In this document: one piece after another, positions 1,216 through 21,702 of the stretch | Numbering within the stretch: position 1 is the first letter of the stretch | Layout: each line of letters starts with the position of its first letter | From: Myxococcales bacterium | GTDB lineage: Bacteria; Myxococcota_A; Polyangia; GCA-2747355 | Length of the DNA stretch: 32,698 nucleotides | Direction of reading: 5' to 3' | Assembly: GCA_020431405.1 (NCBI GenBank) | Contig: JAGQIK010000628.1 | Coordinates: 1-32,698, forward strand | The notes under the pieces: generated by a model | The model's input: only the letters and a program-made list of their open reading frames with translations | What the model was told of the DNA's origin: nothing | The model's database searches: none | Program-made: the position numbers and the translations under genes

Positions 1216-1229
1216 CGCCTCGCGCTAGC
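1211..1229. repeat. perfect inverted repeat holding two convergent stop codons
   Basis: GCTAGCGC, a CTC loop, then GCGCTAGC: an eight-base-pair stem. The TAG of the plus-strand lipoprotein (1213-1215) is in the left arm and the TAG of the minus-strand DUF1801 gene (1227-1225) is in the right arm. It could act as a bidirectional transcription end, but no T-tract follows on either strand. Confidence 0.5.
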
Positions 1230-1626
1230 GGCGCAGGTGATAGGTCAGGGCGGTGGCGATGCAGTCTGCGAGCGCCTGGCGAGGTAGCGGCTGTGTCTGA
1301 CCAACGACCACGGCGCGGTTGCCTTCGAAGCGCAGCGCGTTGCCGTGCTGCAGGCGAAACGACGAGACGAGCTTCGTCTGGCAGTGGAAGAACAGCGTAG
1401 CCTCGCCTTCGCAGACGCCGAGACGCACGGGGCTGCCGATGCGCGCCTTCGTAGGCGCGTAGCTCGGCTGCCCCCACTTGAGCGACTCGCTCAGCGCACC
1501 GACGGCCGCCGTCGCACGCGCCGTCTCGAAGATCAGCTGTCGTAGCTCGAGCAGCCGGTCGCGCACGTCATCACCGAAGGCGGCGAAGGCCTCGGCGACG
1601 GCCGGATCGTCGAAGGCTATGCGCAT
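1225..1626 (-). CDS. DUF1801 protein, second of two
   Basis: This 133-residue protein is a clear DUF1801 member. It has the family core ALSESLKWGQPSY, the strand pair around GSPVRLGV, then LFFHCQTKLVSSFR and LRFEGNRAVVV. This subgroup is more canonical than the copy at 132-560, which has diverged around the same motifs. Function in the cell is not known; proposals for the wider family involve iron or small-ligand binding. The stop of the upstream coiled-coil gene at 1633 is six bases before this ATG, so the pair is very probably co-transcribed. No strong ribosome site is seen, consistent with translation continuing from the upstream gene. Confidence 0.88.
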   Translation of the reverse strand: MRIAFDDPAVAEAFAAFGDDVRDRLLELRQLIFETARATAAVGALSESLKWGQPSYAPTKARIGSPVRLGVCEGEATLFFHCQTKLVSSFRLQHGNALRFEGNRAVVVGQTQPLPRQALADCIATALTYHLRR

Positions 1627-1963: not shown

Positions 1964-2995
1964 CTAGCGCTTGCGCAGCACGAACAGCCGCGTGGTGCCT
2001 GCGAGGTCGCTCGACGACTCGATGGTCAAGCCGGCTCCATTGAACAGGCGGCGCAGCTCGGGCTTGGAGCGCTCGCGCCCGCCGCCGCCGAGCACCAGCA
2101 TCTCGAGGTCCAGCAGGCGGATCGCGTCGGGCCGGTTTCCGGGTAGCAGCGTGCCCTCGATGACGAGCACGCGGCCGTCGTCGTTCATCGCCTCGACGCA
2201 GTTTTCGAGGACCTTCGCGGCGCGCGGGTCGTCCCAGTTGTGCACGATGTGCATCACGATGTACGCGTCGGCGCCGCGCGGCAGCGAAGCGAAGAAGTCG
2301 CCGCCGACGAAGTCGCAGCGATCGCCGACGCCCGCAGCGTCGAGCACCGCGCGCGCTTCACGCTCGACCGCCGGTCGTTCGAGCAGCGTCGCGCGCAGCT
2401 CGGGATAGGCCTCGAGCAGCGCCACGAGCGCCGTGCCGACGCCGCCGCCCACGTCCACCACGCGCTCCACGCGCGAGAAGTCGAACGCCTCGGCGAGCGC
2501 GCGCGCCTCGCGTCGCGTGAAGGCGTCGATGGCGTGCTGGTAGACGCGGCCGTGCTCGCTCTCGCGGTCGAGGTAGTCAAACAGCTCGATGTCGTGCTCG
2601 AGCGCGAACGGCGAGCGGCCGCTGCGGATCGCGCTCGCCAGCTGTGACCAGGGGTTCCACGAAAACGGCGCGCCGGTGTAGACGGCGAGGTCGCCCAGCT
2701 CGTCGCGGCGCAGCTTCTCGCCGAGCGGCGTGAGCGACACGGTGTGATCGGGTTGTGCCGCCAGCACGCCTACGCCGCATAGCACGCGCACCAATCGAGA
2801 GAGCGCGTCGGCATCGCACGCGAGCTCGCCGGCCAGCGCGTCGACGGCACGCGGGCCGTCGCTGAGCGCTTCGGCGAGCCGCAGCTCGGCAGCCGCTGAC
2901 ACCGCGGCCGCGAGCCACTTGCCGCCGATGATGCGCAGCAGCTGCTCGCCGGGGTCGACGACGGCGTCGTCGGGCGTTCTGCGCGGCGAGACCAT
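1964..2995 (-). CDS. SAM-dependent O-methyltransferase (acetylserotonin/plant-COMT type)
   Basis: The 343-residue product has the two-domain layout of bacterial secondary-metabolite O-methyltransferases. A winged-helix dimerisation domain covers about residues 15-100 (LRIIGGKWLAAAVSAAAELRLAEAL). A Rossmann methyltransferase domain follows, with SAM motif I VVDVGGGVG at 179-187 and the acidic residue after the next strand in the ATLLERP region. His252 in MHIVHNWDD aligns with the catalytic His of the family. These enzymes methylate phenolic hydroxyls using S-adenosylmethionine in the cytoplasm. The ATG is 12 bases after the stop of the halogenase-like gene, so the two form an operon, and its substrate is probably that enzyme's product. 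An inverted repeat AGCGC-CTA-GCGCT surrounds the stop codon. The exact substrate cannot be read from sequence. Confidence 0.9.
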   Translation of the reverse strand: MVSPRRTPDDAVVDPGEQLLRIIGGKWLAAAVSAAAELRLAEALSDGPRAVDALAGELACDADALSRLVRVLCGVGVLAAQPDHTVSLTPLGEKLRRDELGDLAVYTGAPFSWNPWSQLASAIRSGRSPFALEHDIELFDYLDRESEHGRVYQHAIDAFTRREARALAEAFDFSRVERVVDVGGGVGTALVALLEAYPELRATLLERPAVEREARAVLDAAGVGDRCDFVGGDFFASLPRGADAYIVMHIVHNWDDPRAAKVLENCVEAMNDDGRVLVIEGTLLPGNRPDAIRLLDLEMLVLGGGGRERSKPELRRLFNGAGLTIESSSDLAGTTRLFVLRKR

Positions 2996-3007
2996 CGATC
3001 CGAAACG

Positions 3008-4861
3008 CTACTGGCGCGCCGTCACGCGAAACAGGCTCGCCGAGTCGCGCGTTGTCACCGGTGCTTCATCGGCGAGCAGCGGCGCCATCAGCTCGGCCAC
3101 GACCTCGTCGCTCGTGTTCTTGACGGTGCGGCCGAGGCAGCGGTCGACGTCGCGCACCGTCAGCGAGACCGCGCGCCGGCGCGCGAGCCCGATAGCCTTG
3201 TGCGCCTCGAGCTGCGCGCGCGGCACGCGCAGCTTCCAGTCGCCGACGCCGAGCTCGTCGAACATCGCGCGCGCCTTCTGCTCGCCCAGATCGTAGACCA
3301 GCCGCAGCAAGAGCTCGGAGGCCAGCTCGTTGCCCTCCTCTGCGCGCGAGCGCATGTACTCGAGCGTCTGCTCGGGCGTCATCTTGTCCTGTAGCGCCAC
3401 GTGAACGTCGACGAGGATCGACGGAAACGAGGGCACCGGCGCGAAGCCAGGCGGTGGCGCCTCCGGCGCTGCCACAGCCCAGTGGCGCATCAGCTTCTGC
3501 ATGTAGCCCGACAGCTCGACGAAGCGGATGCCGACGTCGGAAAACGGCGAGTGGTCGGCGCCCTCGAGCTTGTAGATGCTCTGTACGTAGTACTGGCAGG
3601 GGAAGCACCAGTAGGCGAAGTTGTCCCAGTAGACCTTGGTGCGCATGGCGCGCGCGTGGCCGTAGATCGGCGCCGCGTCGCGAAAGAGGTCTACCGTGCC
3701 GTTGAGCAGCGCGCGGTACTGCAGGTTGAGCGCCTGTGCGCGGCGCTTGAGGTCGCCGCCGCGCTGGTCGCAGCGCACCATCTCGGTGGTGAACGAGTTG
3801 GCGAACGCGATGAAGTCGGTGCCCGGGCTGTAGAGCGGATCAGCGAAGGCGCCGGCCTCGCCGACCATCGCCCAGCGATCCGCCGACCAGGCGCGCCCGA
3901 CGTTGTGGCTGTAGCCGTGCAGGCAGCGGAAGTCGAGCACCTCGAGGTTCTCGAGCGCGCGCGCCAGCACGGGCTCGTGCTCGGCGATGAACGCCAGCGT
4001 CTGCTCGAGCGAGCGCACGTGCTCGAACTCGTGCACGCTGTCGTGCACGACCACGCCGATGCTGGTCTTGCCCGACGACAGCGGGATGATCCAGACCCAG
4101 TAGCCTTCGCCCATCAGGTGGTTCGTCGAACGCCAGCGCTGGTCGCCGGTGGGCACCTTGTGCCAGTCGGCGGCGTCGGGCGCGACCATGTCGTTGATGT
4201 CGAGCTTGCTGTCGACGCGGAACCAGCTCGCGTTGGCTTGGTGATTGGTGCCCCGCGTGAGCTTGAGACGCTTGCGCAGCAGCGCCACGCGCCCGGTTGC
4301 GTCGACAAACCAGCGCGCCAGCAGCTGGCACTGCTCGTCGTCGCGTCCGCCGGGGCCGCCTTGCTCTTCGCGGCGCGCGAGCGTGACGACGTGGTCTTCG
4401 TCGCCCTCGCGAAGCGCGACGTCACGCACGCGCACGCCCTCGATCAACGTCACGCCGTCTTGCTCGACCATCGCGCGCACGTCGTTTTCGAAGGTGCCGC
4501 GATCGATCTGATAGGAGCGAACGATCGGCTCGGCGCTGGGGCCGATCTCGCAGCGCTGCTCGATGGGCAGCTCGCCGCCGCCCGGGAAGAAACGCAGCCC
4601 GAACTTGAGCAGATGGTGGCGCTGCAGATATTCGCCGAGCCCGAGGCTCTCGAGATAAAGCGAGCCGAGCTCGACGCTCGACTCGCCAACCTTGTGCGCC
4701 GCCGTGGGCAGCGGGCGCGCCGTCTTCTCGACGATGGCGACCTCGAGCTCGGGGAATTGCTGCCGCAGCTGGCGCGCGAGGGTCAAACCGGCGAGGCCGC
4801 CGCCAGCGATGACGACGTCGAATCGCTTGGAATCTATGGCCGACAGGCTGTCGTACTGCAT
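3008..4861 (-). CDS. flavin-dependent halogenase-like oxidoreductase
   Basis: This 617-residue enzyme begins with an FAD-binding GGGLAG at 20-25. It carries the halogenase-type motif HKVGES at 56-61, a lysine (Lys86 in LLKFGLRFF) placed like the catalytic lysine of tryptophan and phenol halogenases, and W255-x-W257-x-I-P (YWVWIIP), the WxWxIP signature associated with these halogenases. GEAGAFADPLYSPGTDF, further on, is the second flavin and halide-site region. Characterised members use reduced flavin, oxygen and chloride or bromide to halogenate aromatic substrates. The YSPGTD form differs from the SSGVH-like form of proven enzymes, so it may be a monooxygenase instead. The C-terminal 180 residues are an extra helical domain. 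AAGGAG sits nine bases before the ATG. It is first in an operon with an O-methyltransferase. Confidence 0.88.
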   Translation of the reverse strand: MQYDSLSAIDSKRFDVVIAGGGLAGLTLARQLRQQFPELEVAIVEKTARPLPTAAHKVGESSVELGSLYLESLGLGEYLQRHHLLKFGLRFFPGGGELPIEQRCEIGPSAEPIVRSYQIDRGTFENDVRAMVEQDGVTLIEGVRVRDVALREGDEDHVVTLARREEQGGPGGRDDEQCQLLARWFVDATGRVALLRKRLKLTRGTNHQANASWFRVDSKLDINDMVAPDAADWHKVPTGDQRWRSTNHLMGEGYWVWIIPLSSGKTSIGVVVHDSVHEFEHVRSLEQTLAFIAEHEPVLARALENLEVLDFRCLHGYSHNVGRAWSADRWAMVGEAGAFADPLYSPGTDFIAFANSFTTEMVRCDQRGGDLKRRAQALNLQYRALLNGTVDLFRDAAPIYGHARAMRTKVYWDNFAYWCFPCQYYVQSIYKLEGADHSPFSDVGIRFVELSGYMQKLMRHWAVAAPEAPPPGFAPVPSFPSILVDVHVALQDKMTPEQTLEYMRSRAEEGNELASELLLRLVYDLGEQKARAMFDELGVGDWKLRVPRAQLEAHKAIGLARRRAVSLTVRDVDRCLGRTVKNTSDEVVAELMAPLLADEAPVTTRDSASLFRVTARQ

Positions 4862-4972
4862 CTGCGAAGGCTCCTTGCGGGGTATTCATACACCGGCTGG
4901 CGCCGATGACAAACCCTCAGCGCGCAGCTTGGCGCAGCGCTTGCTCCAGCCTGCGCCCACAGGTGGTGAGCC

Positions 4973-5662
4973 ATGGGAAAACGTATCGAGCTTCCAGAGG
5001 TTGTTGTCGGAGCAGCGGGGGACGGCGAGCGCGGCGCACAGTGGGTCGCCGCCGCCGTCGCAGTGGGACGACCGCGCCGAGCAGTGCCGACCTGGCTCGC
5101 GATCGCGCTGCCGCTGCTGCTCTCCGCGGTCACCGGCGCGGCGATCGGCGCCTGTCAAACCGTCGACGCGTGCCGGCCGATGTCTGCCCACGCGTGTCTG
5201 GTCGCCGGCAAGAACGCGCTCCGCGATCGGCCCGCGTATGGCGTCAAGCTGCTCGTGCACGCCTGTCGGCGCGGCGAGTCGCGCGCCTGTGACCGCGCTG
5301 CGGTCGAGCTAATGGCCGGCCAACGCGTCGCACGCGACAACACGAAGGCCGCCGAGCTGGCGCGCCTCAGCTGCCGGCTGAAGAGCAAGGACGGCTGCAT
5401 GCTGTTCGGTGGGTTGCTGATCGATGGCCTCGGTGTCGAGCGCGACGTGGCGACGGGCGTGCAGCTTGTTCGCGCAGCCTGCCTGCGCTCGTCGGCCATT
5501 GGCTGCAACTTCCTCGCGCAACTTTACAGGCTCGGTCGCGGTGTCGCGCGCGACAGCAAGCGCGCCGCTGCGCTCGAGGCCAAGGCCTGCGCGATGGGCT
5601 ACAAGCCGAGCTGCGGCACGAGCGCAGACAAAGCGCCTGCACGACCCGCTTCAGGTGGATAA
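4973..5662 (+). CDS. membrane-anchored Cys-rich Sel1-repeat protein
   Basis: The 229-residue protein starts with a 38-residue cytoplasmic segment. One transmembrane helix follows (about 40-61, TWLAIALPLLLSAVTGAAIGA), then about 155 residues of Sel1-like helical repeats. The repeats are recognisable as A-x-LA--C/G-x-G---D--KA units: RVARDNTKAAELARLSC, GVERDVATGVQLVRAAC and GVARDSKRAAALEAKAC. Each repeat carries paired cysteines, as in Helicobacter cysteine-rich proteins, so disulphides and a periplasmic location are likely. Sel1 repeats usually mediate protein-protein contacts; no enzyme motif is present. AGGTGGTGAG precedes the ATG. It is divergent from the halogenase gene with 111 bases between starts, and converges on the Kelch-like lipoprotein at 5675. 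Confidence 0.85.
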   Translation: MGKRIELPEVVVGAAGDGERGAQWVAAAVAVGRPRRAVPTWLAIALPLLLSAVTGAAIGACQTVDACRPMSAHACLVAGKNALRDRPAYGVKLLVHACRRGESRACDRAAVELMAGQRVARDNTKAAELARLSCRLKSKDGCMLFGGLLIDGLGVERDVATGVQLVRAACLRSSAIGCNFLAQLYRLGRGVARDSKRAAALEAKACAMGYKPSCGTSADKAPARPASGG

Positions 5663-11834: not shown

Positions 11835-14693
11835 TCAAATCGGCGTCGCATCGTCGTCCTCGGGGCGCCACAGCGTGCGCCAATCGGGCACCTTTCGGGC
11901 AGGCACGTCGATGGCGGCGCTCAGGATATTTTTATTGATTACAACGTCTTCGGTTGCCGTCTGGGCGAGGGCGCGTCCGCACGCGCGCGCGATGCTGGCG
12001 CCGTCGATGCCGTGATAGGCGTAGACGTCGGCGAGGCGGCCACACTTCGAAGCGCGACGAACGCCGAGCGCCAGCTGCTGCACGCCGACGATGCTGCCGG
12101 CGTTGTCGAGCAGACCGGGCTCTCCGTCGCAGACGCTGACGATCGGCACGCGCCGGCCGGCGGCGAGCACGAGATCGGCGCGGTCGCGAACGGTGCTGCT
12201 CGCGGCGTGTTGCGCGTGGGTGGCGCGCGCGAGGTGCAGCCGCCCGTCGAAACCGAGACGCTGCCGCAGGTGCGCGTAGTCGTCGCGCGCGCCGAGGGTG
12301 CCGAGCAGCAGGTCGGCGCTGGTCACGATGGTGACGTTGGCGAAGATGCCGCGCGCTTCGAGCGCCTCCGAGGCGTCGAGCGCCTCGCGGCCCATGGCGC
12401 CGAGGGCCAGGATCTCGACCACGTTGTCGCCGGGCTGATAGCCCTCGCGTCCGCGGTGGTCGACGAGCCGGTAGCCGCCCGCGAGCACGTCGCCGCGTAG
12501 CACCTCGAGCAGTTGCGCGTCGTCGCGGCCGGCGTTTTCAGCGCGCGCGCGCAGGCGCTCGAGCAGCGCGCGCTGCGGCAGACCGCGCGTCACGGCGCGC
12601 ACCACCACGCCGCTGCGCCCGGCGTTGTCGCTGGCGAGGTGGCGGCGTAGCGCGTCGGCGAAGATCCAGTCCATCTCGGCCGCGAACATCGGCTCCCAAC
12701 AGATCAGGTTGGGCATCTGGATGTCGGACTTCCACGAATGCTGCGCGCCCTCGGCCGACAGCGTCACCCCCGAGGGGGTGGCCACGACGACAAAGCTCGA
12801 GCCCCAGTAGAGGTTGTAGTAGAGCTGGTCGAGCGCGCGCTTGATGAAGAAGTCGTAGATCGTCATCAGCGGCAGCAGCGGCGCGCCGCACAGCGCGCTC
12901 ATCTTGCCGAAGGCGCCCGCTGCGAGCATGCAGTTGGACTCGGCGATCTCGAAACGCAGATGACGTGTGCCCGCGCCTTCGCGCGGCGTCAGCGCGGGGC
13001 GGCGCCGGTCGTGCGCTTCGAGCAGGCTCGGATAGTCGGCCTCGGGCGCCGCGCCGAACACGCGCTCGTTCATCACGGCGGCGATGTTGGTCGAGGTGCC
13101 CACGTCGGGCGAGAGGGTCAGCGCGTGCTGCGCCACGGCAAGAAGCGGCTGCTCGGCCGGCGCGAGCTCGGACGCGTCGCGCGCGCTGCCGATACGCGCC
13201 AGCTTGGCGGCGATCTGGCCCCACATCCACTGCGTGTGCGCCATCGGCATCAGCGCGAGGTTGATCGCCAGGCTGTCCGGCATCGCCGGGGCTCGGCGGC
13301 GCACGGTATCGAGGCGCGCCGCGCTCTCGGCCCACAGCGACTCGAAGCCGCGCCGCAGCGCCTCGCCGCGCCGCGTGCAGAGCGTCGCCGCCGCGCTCGG
13401 CGCGTCGAAACGCCGGTAGCTCTCGTGTGCGCGCGCGGGCCCCTGCTCGCCGGCGCGCGCCGAGGGCAGGCCCGCGCGTGCGAGCAGCGCGTCGACCTCC
13501 TGCGCGTCAGGCAGCGCCGAGTGGTTGCCGGGCGCCGCGGCCATCTCGAGCCCCCAGCCCTTGAGCGTGTGCGCGATGATCAGCGTTGGCTGCGGCGCGC
13601 TGCGCGCGTCTTCGAGCGCGTCGACGAGCGCGGCGAGGTCGTGACCGCCGAGGTCGGCGAGCAGCTCGGCTACGCGGTCGTCATCGAGCGCTTCGAGCGC
13701 GCTCGCCGCACCCTCGTCGCGCTTTCGCAGCTGGCGGCGCGTGGCGGCGGCGGCCGCGGCGCGTGCGTCGGCGTCGCTTGCGGCGCGCGCGTGGCGAAAG
13801 AGCAGCGAGGTCAGCTCGTAGTCGTCGAGGGCCTCGAAGGCGCGACGCAGCGCCTCGCCCGCGGGCGCCTCGAAGGCGGCGCGGCGGCGCGCGCCGTGGC
13901 GAAGCTCGACGACGCGCCAGCCGTTAGCCGCGGCCATGCGCGCGATGCGCTCGCTGTCGGCCACGCCGAGGGCGCCGTGACCCGCCACGCGCGCGCCGTC
14001 GAGGCTCTGGCGGTTGTAGTCGACGATCCACGTCACGTTGCAGAGCCCGCGCTCGCTCGCCTCGGGCAGCGCTTCGAGCAGCGAGCCCTCGCGCAGCTCC
14101 GAGTCGCCGACGATGGCGTAGACGTGCGGCGCGCGCGCGTCGGCCGAGAGGCCCTCGAGCAGCCCGTTGGCTTCGGCGTAGCGGTAGGCGAGGGCGACGA
14201 AGAGACCGACCACGGCGGGGATGCCCACGGAGCCCGCCGGCAGCATGCGGTGGGCGTCGGGGTCGCTTTCGGCGTGATAGGACTGAAAGACGGGCTCGCC
14301 GTCGCGCGGGAAGTCGCGCAGGCGCGTCATCGCGCGCGCGGCCGCGTCGTCGTCGAGCCAGCGGCCGCTGCGCGCGTCGCGCATCAGGCCGAGCAGAAAG
14401 CTCAGCGCGTGATCGCTCGGCGAGGCGTGTGGCTTGCCAGCGATGATGTCGCTCGGGCGGCGCACCCACAGGTGCAGCGCGGCGCAGATGTGCAGCGCCG
14501 ACGAAGCCGCCGCCGGATGGCCGCCGACCTTGGGGTCGCCGTCGGCCGCGTCGCCGCGGTGGTTGGCGTCGTAGATCATCGCCGTGGCCAGCGCCAGCGC
14601 GCGGCGCACGATCACCTCGAGCGTCTCGAGCTGCTCGGCGCTCGGCCCATCGCGGCGCTCCGCGGCGGCCGGCGAATCGAGCCGGCGGTTCAC
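11835..14693 (-). CDS. homodimeric-type thiamine-diphosphate E1 dehydrogenase (AceE-like)
   Basis: The start is the GTG at 14693, overlapping the YihY stop as GTGA, giving 952 residues. The layout is that of AceE/transketolase-type E1 enzymes. His59 in KVGGHPAAASS lies in the N-terminal part. The thiamine-diphosphate/magnesium motif runs from GDSEL at 196-200 to N227-RQSLDG. TLIIAHTLKGWGLEMA corresponds to the AceE segment TVILAKTVKGYG. A pyrimidine-binding domain follows with FEIAESNCMLAAGAFGK, and then a C-terminal transketolase domain. The family decarboxylates 2-oxo acids and passes the acyl group to a lipoyl E2. Compared with E. coli AceE, GDGEMDEP is changed to GDSELREG, and no E2 or E3 gene is nearby, so the substrate may not be pyruvate. 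It is co-transcribed with a membrane protein and an acyltransferase. Confidence 0.87.
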   Translation of the reverse strand: MNRRLDSPAAAERRDGPSAEQLETLEVIVRRALALATAMIYDANHRGDAADGDPKVGGHPAAASSALHICAALHLWVRRPSDIIAGKPHASPSDHALSFLLGLMRDARSGRWLDDDAAARAMTRLRDFPRDGEPVFQSYHAESDPDAHRMLPAGSVGIPAVVGLFVALAYRYAEANGLLEGLSADARAPHVYAIVGDSELREGSLLEALPEASERGLCNVTWIVDYNRQSLDGARVAGHGALGVADSERIARMAAANGWRVVELRHGARRRAAFEAPAGEALRRAFEALDDYELTSLLFRHARAASDADARAAAAAATRRQLRKRDEGAASALEALDDDRVAELLADLGGHDLAALVDALEDARSAPQPTLIIAHTLKGWGLEMAAAPGNHSALPDAQEVDALLARAGLPSARAGEQGPARAHESYRRFDAPSAAATLCTRRGEALRRGFESLWAESAARLDTVRRRAPAMPDSLAINLALMPMAHTQWMWGQIAAKLARIGSARDASELAPAEQPLLAVAQHALTLSPDVGTSTNIAAVMNERVFGAAPEADYPSLLEAHDRRRPALTPREGAGTRHLRFEIAESNCMLAAGAFGKMSALCGAPLLPLMTIYDFFIKRALDQLYYNLYWGSSFVVVATPSGVTLSAEGAQHSWKSDIQMPNLICWEPMFAAEMDWIFADALRRHLASDNAGRSGVVVRAVTRGLPQRALLERLRARAENAGRDDAQLLEVLRGDVLAGGYRLVDHRGREGYQPGDNVVEILALGAMGREALDASEALEARGIFANVTIVTSADLLLGTLGARDDYAHLRQRLGFDGRLHLARATHAQHAASSTVRDRADLVLAAGRRVPIVSVCDGEPGLLDNAGSIVGVQQLALGVRRASKCGRLADVYAYHGIDGASIARACGRALAQTATEDVVINKNILSAAIDVPARKVPDWRTLWRPEDDDATPI

Positions 14694-16228
14694 GCCGTCT
14701 CCTTGACCTTGGCGGCCTCGGTTTCGGCTACGGCTTCGGTCTCGGTCTCGGCTTCGGCTTCGGCTTCGGCTTCGGCTTCGGCTTCGGCTATCGCCGTGGC
14801 CTTGGCGGCATCGCGGGCGAGGCTGGCGAGGTCGCGTTCGGCCAGCACGTCGTGGCGCGCCTTGTCGGCGCGCGCGAGCAGCGCTTCGACGTCGTCGGCA
14901 CCTCGGTCGTCGGCGAGCTCGAGCGCGTCGCCGTCGCCTTCGACGGCGCGCGCGAGGTCGGCGAGCGTCGTGTCGTCGAGCGCGTGGTGCGGTACGAGGC
15001 CGCCGCCTTCGTCGCCCGCCAGCTCGCGCAGCAGATCCTGCCGCAGCAGCACGGCGACGACGTTCTGCACGAGCGTCAGCGGTGCCCCGGTCAGCTCCGA
15101 GAGGTCTTGGGCGGTGGGCGCGTCCTTCTGCTGGGCGAAGGCGCGGCTGCACAGCGAGACGATGCGCGTGGCCAGCCGCACGCGGCTGCGGATGCTCACC
15201 GACGCGGTGCCCACGCTGAGGCTGTGCGTGGCCACGGTCTGGTTAGCGTAGGTGTAGACCACGCCGAACAGCACGATGACCCAGCTGTAGTAGATCCACA
15301 GCATCAGCAACGGCAGCGCGCTGAGCGCGCCGTAGACGGCGCTGTACTTGGCGCTCGCCGCCGTCAGCGCGAGGAACGCCGCCTTGCCCGCCGTCCAGAG
15401 CAGCCCCGCGACGATCCCGCCGACGATGGCGTGGCGCAGGTACACCTTGATGTTGGGGACGATCAAGTAGACGAAGATGAAGGCGAGGCTGATCGCCAGG
15501 TCGGCCACGCCAGCGAGCAGCCACTTGCCGAGGCCCCAAGGCAGCCACGCCTGCACGGAGAGCGCGAAGGCCGACGTGCGCAGCTTCGCCGACAGCGACA
15601 GCGACACCCCGAGCAGCGGCGGCGCGAGCGTGATGATGCACCAGTAGATCGCGAATCGCAGCGCCAGCGGCCGCATGCGCTCGACGCCCCAGATGCGGTT
15701 GAACGCGCGCTCGACGGTGGTCAGCAGCCCCACGGCCGAATAGAAGAGGATGATCACGCCGATGCCGGCGATGGCGCCGGTGTTGATATTGGCGATGAAC
15801 TTGTCGAGCCAGCTCGCCACCGAGTCGCCGCTGCCGACGGCGAGGTTTTCGATGATGAACTGCTTCAGCGGTCCTTCGGCCGACTTGAGCCCGCCGAACG
15901 CCTTGAACAGCGCGAAGGCGACCGCGAGCACCGGCACCAGCGACAGCATCGAGAAGTACGTCAGGCCGGCGGCGCGGCGCGTGATCTCGTCCGAGCGCAG
16001 CCGCTGCGCCGTCAGCAGGAAGATCGCCAGCTGCTTGACCGCGAACGCGGTGATGCCCTTCTTGTGGCGAAAGCGGTCGAGCACCAGCTGCAGGTGAAGC
16101 GGGTCCCACAGCCAGAGCAGCTTGTCGAGCAGCCGGCGCACGAGCCCGCGCGTGGGCTCGGCCTCCTTCGTGGGCTGCGCCTTCTGCGCCTTGGTCTCGA
16201 CCGGCTGCTGCTGCTCGCTGGCGCTCAC
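14690..16228 (-). CDS. YihY/BrkB family membrane protein with winged-helix and Glu-Ala tail
   Basis: From the GTG at 16228 the product has 512 residues. A charged N-terminus of about 60 residues precedes a YihY (formerly ribonuclease BN) domain with six membrane helices. Family stretches are RRAAGLTYFSMLSLVPVLAVAFALF, SAVGLLTTVERAFNRIWGVER, VPNIKVYLRHAIVGGIVAGLLW and SAVYGALSALPLLMLWIYYSWVIVLFG. A predicted winged-helix region (PTAQDLSELTGAPLTLVQNVVAVLLRQDLL) follows. The C-terminal tail is low-complexity Glu-Ala/Glu-Thr, coded by a hexanucleotide repeat. The function of YihY proteins is not settled; transport or envelope roles are proposed and ribonuclease activity has been withdrawn. TATGGT lies six bases before the GTG. 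The stop overlaps the next start (GTGA), implying coupling. Confidence 0.88.
   Translation of the reverse strand: MSASEQQQPVETKAQKAQPTKEAEPTRGLVRRLLDKLLWLWDPLHLQLVLDRFRHKKGITAFAVKQLAIFLLTAQRLRSDEITRRAAGLTYFSMLSLVPVLAVAFALFKAFGGLKSAEGPLKQFIIENLAVGSGDSVASWLDKFIANINTGAIAGIGVIILFYSAVGLLTTVERAFNRIWGVERMRPLALRFAIYWCIITLAPPLLGVSLSLSAKLRTSAFALSVQAWLPWGLGKWLLAGVADLAISLAFIFVYLIVPNIKVYLRHAIVGGIVAGLLWTAGKAAFLALTAASAKYSAVYGALSALPLLMLWIYYSWVIVLFGVVYTYANQTVATHSLSVGTASVSIRSRVRLATRIVSLCSRAFAQQKDAPTAQDLSELTGAPLTLVQNVVAVLLRQDLLRELAGDEGGGLVPHHALDDTTLADLARAVEGDGDALELADDRGADDVEALLARADKARHDVLAERDLASLARDAAKATAIAEAEAEAEAEAEAETETEAVAETEAAKVKETA
14751..14786. repeat. six exact GCTTCG hexanucleotide copies
   Basis: Six perfect tandem copies, flanked at 14721-14750 by degenerate units, encode the Ala-Glu tail of the YihY protein. 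Gain or loss of units would keep the frame and change only tail length. Confidence 0.9.
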
Positions 16229-19986: not shown

Positions 19987-20097
19987 CAGGGCGCGTTGCG
20001 CCGCGCCCACCGGATCGTCTACGATTGCGCCGCGCGCGCGAGCCCTGCGATTCCCAATGGTTCGACGCCGTACCCACGGAGGGGAGGCGAGACATCG

Positions 20098-21702
20098 ATG
20101 AGACCCGAAGACAGGGATCGGATCCAGGTCGAGGTTGTCAGCCGCATCGTCGAGAACCACATGAAGCGGGCGCGCAGCGCGCCCGAGGGGTATCTCGAGA
20201 CGCTGGTCAACGACACGCTCTATCACGAACAACAGCGCCTCAAACGCGAGTCGAGCAGCAAGCGTGTGCGCGACGACAAGTCGTTCTACGGCGGCATCAA
20301 GCGCCGCATGCGCCACGCGTCGGACCATGACCTGCGCGGGCTGATCGACGAGATGTCGCGTCACTTCGTGCGCGAGGTGGTCGGCAACTTCGACGACCGC
20401 GTCTACAAGCTCTCCACGTCGGTGATCCCGACGGGCCTGTCGCTGCTGCTCAACGCGCAGTCGCCGGCGCGGCTGTTCTCGCTCGAGAACCTGCGCGACG
20501 GCCTCGCCGACCACCTGATCGTGCAAGGCGAGGTCGACCACGTGCGGGGATTGCTCGACCACGGCACGCTGGTGGTCGTCCCGACGCACTCGTCGAACCT
20601 CGACAGCCCGCTGCTCGGCTACGCCGCGCACCTGATGGGGTTGCCGCCGCTGCTCTATGGCGCCGGGCTCAACCTCTTTACCAACCCGATGATCTCGTTC
20701 TTCATGCGCAACCTCGGCGCGTACCGCGTCGACCGCAAGAAGAACGCCGGGCTCTACAAGGAAGTGCTCAAGGAGTACGCCACCGTCGCGATGGAGATGG
20801 GTTACCACAACCTGTTCTTCCCCGGCGGCACGCGCAGCCGCAGCGGCGCGATCGAGCAGCACCTCAAAAAAGGGCTGCTCGGCACCGCCGTGCGCGCCTA
20901 CGTGGGCAACCTCAAGGCCAAGAAGGCCAAGCCCAACATCTACGTCGCGCCGTGCACGCTCTCGTACAAGCTCGTGCTCGAGGCCGAGACGCTGATCGAC
21001 GACCACCTCAAGGAGGTCGGCAAGTCGCGCTACATCATCTCCGACGACGAGTTTTCGCGGCCGCGCCGCATCTACAACTTCTTTTCGAACCTCGTCTCGC
21101 TCGACGCGAAGATCCTGATCACCTTCTCGCCGCCGCTCGATCTGTTCGGAAACCCCGTCAACCGCCAGGGCGAGAGCCTCGACCCGCACGGCCGCGTGAT
21201 CGATCCAGCTGGCTACGTCTCGCGCGACGGCGAGCCGGTCTACGACGACCAGCGCGATCACGAGTACACCAACGAGGTTGCCAGCGAGATCGGGCGCGCC
21301 TACATGGAGCACAACGTGATCCAGTCGACGAACCTGGTCGCGTTTTCGATCTTCAACCTGCTCTCGCGCAAGAACCCCGACCTCGACGTCTATCGCATTC
21401 TGCGCACCGGCGGCGACGAGCCCTCGTTCACCATGGCCGACGTGCACGTCGAGACCGAGCGCGTGCTGAGCACCCTCGACGAGATGGAGGCCGGCCCGCG
21501 CCTCGAGCGCGACCTGCGACGCGGTGACATCCAGGAGATCGTCGGCGACGCGCTCAAGACGTTCGCGCTCTACCACACGCGGCCCGCGGCGCGCCGGCGC
21601 GGCGACCGCGTCTTCCACGACGATCGCAACCTGCTGCTCTACTACGGCAACCGCCTGCGGGGCTACGACCTCGGCCGCAAGCTCGGCGTCAACTGGGCCT
21701 GA
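20098..21702 (+). CDS. PlsB-like glycerol-3-phosphate acyltransferase
   Basis: The 534-residue protein has the acyltransferase catalytic motif PTHSSNLDSP (His164 and Asp169, HX4D) and the downstream LGAYRVDRKK and FFPGGTRSRSG, which together bind the glycerol phosphate. The size and the long helical N-terminus resemble PlsB/GPAT rather than the short PlsC type. Later regions (IYVAPCTLSYKLVLEAETLIDDHL) match GPAT-like proteins. Such an enzyme puts the first acyl chain on sn-glycerol-3-phosphate at the membrane. GGGGAGG lies ten bases before the ATG; an upstream in-frame start at 19996 has no support. GpsA, which makes its substrate, follows at 20 bases, a strong functional hint. Confidence 0.9.
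   Translation: MRPEDRDRIQVEVVSRIVENHMKRARSAPEGYLETLVNDTLYHEQQRLKRESSSKRVRDDKSFYGGIKRRMRHASDHDLRGLIDEMSRHFVREVVGNFDDRVYKLSTSVIPTGLSLLLNAQSPARLFSLENLRDGLADHLIVQGEVDHVRGLLDHGTLVVVPTHSSNLDSPLLGYAAHLMGLPPLLYGAGLNLFTNPMISFFMRNLGAYRVDRKKNAGLYKEVLKEYATVAMEMGYHNLFFPGGTRSRSGAIEQHLKKGLLGTAVRAYVGNLKAKKAKPNIYVAPCTLSYKLVLEAETLIDDHLKEVGKSRYIISDDEFSRPRRIYNFFSNLVSLDAKILITFSPPLDLFGNPVNRQGESLDPHGRVIDPAGYVSRDGEPVYDDQRDHEYTNEVASEIGRAYMEHNVIQSTNLVAFSIFNLLSRKNPDLDVYRILRTGGDEPSFTMADVHVETERVLSTLDEMEAGPRLERDLRRGDIQEIVGDALKTFALYHTRPAARRRGDRVFHDDRNLLLYYGNRLRGYDLGRKLGVNWA

Follow-up and report, generated by a model that had tools for sequence, protein, structure and literature searches.

The aryl head groups of aryl polyene (APE) pigments are tailored by methylation and halogenation, and their hydroxyl group usually derives from the precursor (PMC8253772; this and the other articles cited here are represented by excerpts). 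For xanthomonadin-type pigments, halogenation is tied to a gene in the cited literature only by the presence of that gene in the cluster (PMC3691225). Here we describe two neighboring genes in a 32,698-nucleotide contig (JAGQIK010000628.1) of a Myxococcales bacterium; this whole stretch is referred to as the window. The genes encode a halogenase-type enzyme dependent on flavin adenine dinucleotide (FAD), termed FDH, and an O-methyltransferase (OMT) dependent on S-adenosylmethionine (SAM). We consider the pair to be, on balance, a ring-tailoring module of an APE pigment pathway that has become displaced from its core cluster.

The nearest relatives of FDH were collected by scanning species genomes with a seven-member FDH alignment, which gave 577 confirmed relatives; the best 80 were kept, and the counts below refer to these nearest relatives only. 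Together with the loci of class-level relatives they form the locus set (labeled L), in which 94 loci and the window were searched for OMT with a six-frame profile. FDH is at least 47% identical to that of the window in 19 loci, of which 16 are testable for OMT, as three (L038, L050 and L070) end at a contig edge and were left out. Two contigs were sampled twice (L035/L061 and L037/L074), none of them among the 16. OMT lies directly downstream of FDH on the same strand in 13 of the 16 testable loci; the profile search found none next to FDH in L057, L058 and L060, and an OMT of this type (E ≤ 1e-10) in no other of the 94 loci searched. FDH and OMT identities are correlated (r = 0.82 for 14 pairs including the window; 0 of 5000 permutations as high). 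Given the conserved order and the correlated identities, the adjacency exceeds chance, and the two genes form a cassette conserved among loci of Myxococcota and Planctomycetota, which bears out the initial annotation of a two-gene tailoring cassette. In L046, L048, L054 and L059 the two reading frames, as called by the gene picker, overlap by 4 nucleotides.

A tree of 64 rows, built with a quick method and including MalA and PltA as partial sequences but no proven monooxygenase or tryptophan halogenase, places the window, 11 other paired loci and L057 in a 13-row clade with 99% support, where the window FDH groups with L046, L048 and L049 (82% support). Well supported branches split 43 of the 45 FDH-family rows from the variant-B halogenases and from a second Trp_halogenase-like protein of these loci (Hal2, see below); the FDH-like L042 and L045 fall on the other side. 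MalA falls on the FDH side, a placement that is unsure as the sequence is partial and its branch long. The host genome (G000) also encodes a distant FDH paralogue (L145, contig C237, 3294–4886; 37% identity over query residues 9–369), which is placed outside the main FDH family. A viral origin was considered and rejected: 20 pattern matches occurred among viral contigs, with no relative among them.

The pair is flanked by 2–12 APE gene families in all 13 paired relatives. In L054 and L046 the neighbors recognized by Pfam comprise ketosynthases (KS), DUF3261, an MMPL exporter, LolA, a lipid A-type acyltransferase, GT2, an acyl carrier protein (ACP), a PlsC-type acyltransferase, a ketoreductase (KR), an AMP-ligase, an aromatic amino acid lyase, a thioesterase and Hal2. 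One L054 ketosynthase scores over the curated NF006618 cut-off, and the L054 member of a further family, c4, has no Pfam match and matched the FabA/FabZ-type dehydratase chain 6qsr (E 1.5e-5). L034 and L054 share the order PlsC operon, divergent FDH-OMT, convergent KR…c4 operon. The set is that of an APE cluster and is in line with those entries of the ape gene list (A to M; C, I, O, P and Q) that the excerpt of PMC8253772 covers.

The host genome carries the corresponding core on a different contig, C346, the pair itself being on C441 (the window). By homology to the genes of the relatives, one strand of C346 encodes c4, a CLF-like KS, KS, Hal2 and KR, and the other PlsC, ACP, AMP-ligase, GT2, acyltransferase, thioesterase, LolA and an MMPL protein cut by the contig end. 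The C346 ACP is 75% identical to that of L047 and scores over the NF006617 cut-off; the KS scores over the NF006618 cut-off and has 6qsp and 7f28 as its best PDB chains. We take 6qsp and 6qsr to be Xenorhabdus APE enzymes, 6qsp being the aryl polyene ketosynthase. At the level of genes, C346 therefore has the make-up of an APE cluster, its dehydratase being represented by c4. A homology search of C346 did not find the FDH-OMT pair. On C346, the divergent site that holds FDH-OMT in L034 and L054 has the starts of KR and PlsC (8983 and 9109), back to back and separated by 125 bases. Window and C346 are alike in GC content (0.700 and 0.698) and tetranucleotide composition (correlation 0.969); the correlation is 0.93–0.98 for four other G000 contigs and 0.62–0.88 for 13 loci of other genomes. 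The two contigs share no 25-mers at their ends, the only parts compared. Elsewhere in G000, matches to the aromatic lyase (26–33%) were too weak to be used, and MMPL matches outside C346 were weak and taken as other exporters.

Across 59 related genomes, a strong FDH match (E ≤ 1e-40, a threshold set after the results were known) occurs in 8, all of them among the 13 with an APE-type KS over cut-off (hypergeometric 6e-7). These 8 genomes are not independent, since 6 belong to one family. FDH and the APE ketosynthase lie on different contigs in 6 of the 8; therefore, separation of FDH from the core is nothing uncommon, and the unusual feature of the host is that the FDH-OMT pair, rather than FDH alone, is apart from it. 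The production of arcuflavin in Azoarcus, which needs both arc clusters, is a precedent for unlinked APE loci acting together (excerpt of PMC3949708).

In the window, no polyketide synthase (PKS) or nonribosomal peptide synthetase (NRPS) domain was detected in 40 distinct open reading frames (ORFs), which take in 28 of the 30 chosen by the gene picker. The initial annotation had likewise described the pair as isolated from such synthetases and a small phenolic product, possibly chlorinated and methylated, as plausible. A stand-alone cassette making a free phenolic metabolite of this kind would suit this absence and also the 23 of 80 FDH loci, L058 and L060 included, that lack any APE family in their flanks. 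We nevertheless consider it quite improbable, as the 13 paired relatives all sit among APE genes and the host has an APE core without the pair; for the same reasons the “isolated” pair looks displaced. Probably the pair moved out of the cluster, or the cluster was rearranged around it; as the product, a modified aryl polyene is likelier than a small free phenol. A displaced pair could also be a relic, cut from the pigment cluster and no longer working with it, as its position and the back-to-back KR/PlsC site on C346 might suggest. This we regard as very improbable, since both frames are intact with a strong third-position GC bias (0.91), the invariant residues of the family are kept and FDH is preceded by a good ribosome-binding site.

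Several observations weigh against a displaced APE module. The pair and C346 are unlinked in the assembly, and the separation of FDH from the APE ketosynthase in most strong-FDH genomes points the same way. Moreover, among the best 80 of the 577 FDH loci, two or more APE families flank FDH in 40, a single one in 17 and none in 23; of the 68 loci without OMT, 28 have at least two and 23 none. The FDH family at large is thus not tied to APE genes. On the chemical side, arcuflavin is methylated and non-brominated, although its clusters include the halogenase-annotated arcA (excerpt of PMC3949708). Within FDH, a proline (P346) takes the place of one of two residues whose backbone NH groups lie at the halide site in RebH (excerpt of PMC5945002), so that this NH is lost. 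The NCBIfam model for QhpG, by its name a flavin-dependent monooxygenase, scores 53.6 bits on FDH and the CmlS halogenase model 58.3, both far below cut-off. MalA is not among the 50 VIA-align matches listed, and its Foldseek TM-scores are only ∼0.5. Finally, Hal2 keeps a canonical FSSGV loop, as does the host copy on C346, which has WxWxIP as well; Hal2 could be the real halogenase. To our knowledge, no member of the FDH family has been assayed.

The structural evidence nonetheless favors a halogenase. FDH belongs to the Pfam family Trp_halogenase (PF04820, E 7e-16), and its AF2 model (pLDDT 93.5, pTM 0.93) has the halogenase-type FAD fold. Foldseek gave MalA′ the best E-value, followed by 3nix, CtcP, FasV and PltA, with moderate TM-scores. 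VIA-align ranked CndH (Z 35.5), FasV, Bmp2, 3nix, ChlB4, PltA, Mpy16, CmlS and RadH first, and its ten best rows (Z 33.1–35.5) are nine halogenases and the uncharacterized 3nix. The first monooxygenase in this ranking is PHBH (Z 30.4), level with the halogenases PltM, AbeH and CtcP. The GxGxxG motif (GGGLAG), WxWxIP (WVWIIP) and a candidate catalytic lysine (Lys86, equivalent to Lys108 of MalA) are all present. Lys86, Trp255, Trp257, Ile259, Pro260, Ser345 and Gly347 are invariant in 62/62 FDH rows, Asp349 is kept in 61 and Pro346 in 50.

An SSGVH-like loop is usual in halogenases, a point on which the initial annotation was borne out by PltA, ChlB4 and Mpy16 (FSSGV) and, with variants, by FasV (LSTGV) and CmlS (FSQGV), but not by MalA (YSPGIN). 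In FDH this position reads S-P-G, with a proline that offers no backbone NH, and MalA is likewise S-P-G. MalA is a proven halogenase with Lys108 as its catalytic lysine (excerpt of PMC9144378). The YSPG loop therefore does not exclude halogenation, and the doubt that had been raised over YSPGTD is weakened.

Alternatively, FDH could serve the same APE pathway as a hydroxylase on a halogenase fold, with OMT capping the new hydroxyl as a methoxy group and any halogen coming from the Hal2 of C346. The tight coupling of FDH to OMT, the features of host Hal2, the near-equal QhpG and CmlS scores and the non-brominated arcuflavin (PMC3949708) would all be accommodated, and the known L. enzymogenes cluster is described as lacking an O-methyltransferase and a ring 4-hydroxylase (excerpt of PMC3691225, section 8). 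We consider this rather unlikely. WxWxIP, suggested to keep flavin halogenases from monooxygenase activity (excerpt of PMC5945002), is invariant in its key residues along with Lys86, nine of the ten top fold rows are halogenases, and the hydroxyl of an APE is as a rule supplied by its precursor. Halogenation by FDH is thus likelier than hydroxylation, though unproven.

OMT matches Methyltransf_2 (PF00891, E 1e-40) and a dimerization domain (PF08100), with 6c5b, MmcR and AlpH as its nearest PDB chains. The glycine-rich SAM motif reads VDVGGG, and His252, at the general-base position, is kept in 14/14 paired OMTs, window included. All features of a Methyltransf_2-type OMT (dimerization and SAM domains, glycine-rich motif and histidine) are present. 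No NCBIfam model scored over its cut-off for FDH or OMT.

Returning to the preferred reading of a displaced APE module, we infer a scheme in which the pair acts in trans on the product of the host core. The ketosynthases, dehydratase, ketoreductase, carrier protein, AMP-ligase, acyltransferases and exporter of C346 would build a carrier-bound aryl polyene. A general flavin reductase would supply FDH with FADH2, and the C4a-hydroperoxide that FDH forms would with halide give a hypohalous acid (HOX) held at Lys86; the electron-rich aryl ring would then be halogenated, probably on the carrier-bound substrate. Several of the halogenases that match best (PltA and its kin) work on carrier-bound substrates, a mode of action that an aryl polyene on a carrier protein would fit. 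OMT would methylate a phenolic hydroxyl, with His252 as general base. The conserved pair, its location among APE genes, the host core cluster, the halogenase fold and the invariant lysine are direct results of our computations.

The features of the pair are collected in Table 1. The two genes and their 12-base spacing are as given in the initial annotation, and the HKVGES, Lys86, WxWxIP and YSPGTD elements that it named are all present.

Table 1. Coordinates of the FDH-OMT pair and its sequence elements in the window.
Feature	Position	Strand	Basis
FDH, 617-aa FAD-dependent halogenase-type enzyme, gene 1 of the pair	3008–4861	(-)	Pfam, AF2 model and PDB folds
OMT, 343-aa SAM-dependent O-methyltransferase, gene 2 of the pair	1964–2995	(-)	Pfam and PDB chains
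Intergenic gap between FDH and OMT, 12 nt	2996–3007	(-)	
Lys86 codon (in KFGLRFF), candidate catalytic lysine	4604–4606	(-)	Aligns with MalA Lys108
HKVGES motif, FDH residues 56–61	4679–4696	(-)	Read in translation; HKVGES in 52/62 rows
WVWIIP (= WxWxIP), FDH residues 255–260	4082–4099	(-)	
YSPGTD loop, FDH residues 344–349; where other halogenases have their halide-binding loop	3815–3832	(-)	
AAGGAG, Shine-Dalgarno-like, 9 nt upstream of the FDH start	4871–4876	(-)	

Left of the pair, toward the contig end, the window has two DUF1801 genes (132–560 and 1225–1626, minus strand); divergent from FDH lies a gene with a weak Sel1-repeat match (4973–5662, plus strand). Two genes encode PlsC-type acyltransferases (PF01553; 10939–11883, minus strand, and 19996–21702, plus strand). 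The former is 28–31% like an acyltransferase of Lysobacteraceae pigment clusters, which is too weak to link it with the pair. At 11835–15251, long ORFs of 1105 aa (minus strand) and 837 aa (plus strand) overlap on opposite strands, and the 1105-aa ORF has a weak transketolase-like match only.

The FDH family is also found in other arrangements. Nine loci (L064, L066, L071, L072, L075, L076, L078, L111 and L118) each have two divergent FDH-family genes, with at least two APE families in the flanks of all except L111; the second genes of L064 and L071 form their own tree branch. In five Actinomycetota loci (L082, L093, L095, L101 and L103, from Streptomyces, Nocardiopsis and Rhodococcus), 2–3 tandem FDH-family genes lie near a type I PKS, whose domains were read in L093, and an alpha/beta hydrolase family gene was called in 4 of the 5. 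A Janthinobacterium plasmid (L033) has a single FDH with partners similar to those of the tandem loci. The FDH family may thus also serve a different polyketide pathway in the Actinomycetota and Janthinobacterium loci. On a Gloeothece plasmid (L032, 14950–18401), an FDH homologue is followed 176 bases on by a gene annotated as hpaB (4-hydroxyphenylacetate 3-monooxygenase), which again hints at phenolic substrates.

More broadly, and only tentatively, the FDH family might be a separate, MalA-like class of bacterial flavin halogenases, with an S-P-G-x-D loop and a long C-terminal domain, that serves carrier-bound aryl polyenes in many bacteria and includes the xanthomonadin “halogenase”. In one Myxococcota/Planctomycetota clade it might have joined OMT to give halogenated, methoxylated aryl polyenes, the module working in trans after leaving the cluster. 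With an FDH-OMT module conserved in a defined clade, the halogenation and O-methylation steps could be tested directly. The locus also illustrates that annotation of cluster boundaries can miss tailoring genes moved away from the core.

Among described systems, the xanthomonadin-like “halogenase” is a close counterpart by gene order. In the Lysobacterales/Burkholderiales loci L107, L112, L119 and L193, the FDH family adjoins KS; L107 and L193 also have a called CLF-like gene, and L112 and L193 a called GT2. This layout matches the “halogenase” genes in the Fig. 5 legend of PMC3691225 (excerpt), namely H in Xanthomonas (the green gene of that figure) and possibly arcA in Azoarcus. We infer the equivalence of the FDH family with H and arcA from gene order, rather than from an alignment of the proteins. 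The Xanthomonas cluster holds a second halogenase-like gene, XanB1 (excerpt of PMC3838355), and L193 likewise has two. FDH of these loci is ∼36–43% identical to the window FDH; unlike the window pair, the loci searched have no adjacent OMT of this type. An FDH match at E ≤ 1e-20 occurs in 111 of 198 genomes of the Lysobacter pythonis family, where the weakest matches may be Hal2.

With respect to the enzyme, the malbrancheamide halogenases MalA and MalA′ (PDB 5wgr–5wgz) resemble FDH in the lysine (Lys108/Lys86) and the YSPG loop, and MalA′ gave its best Foldseek E-value over 587 alignment columns. They differ in that MalA is only ∼20% identical to FDH (TM ∼0.5), has Asn in place of Asp at the end of the loop (YSPGIN and YSPGTD), and is a fungal enzyme acting on an indole alkaloid (excerpt of PMC9144378). 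The variant-B FADH2 halogenases CndH, PltA, ChlB4, Mpy16, Bmp2, CmlS and FasV are top fold matches (Z 33.4–35.5) and share the WxWxIP-type motif. In contrast to FDH, their chains have 409–591 aa, SSG, STG or SQG stands in place of SPG in each of the five loops read, and FasV, CmlS, ChlB4, Mpy16 and PltA lie on long, well supported branches away from the main FDH family.

At the level of clusters, the described APE systems (E. coli ape, flexirubin, xanthomonadin and arcuflavin) have gene functions in common with C346 and the clusters of its relatives. The E. coli cluster has its own methyltransferase, ApeB, and the published gene lists, as excerpted from PMC8253772 and PMC3949708, contain no adjacent halogenase-OMT pair. 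The window pair is unlinked from an APE core, unlike the pair of all 13 paired relatives. Compared with these systems, the novelty is one of degree and not of kind: a tailoring module specific to one clade, which in this genome is probably displaced.

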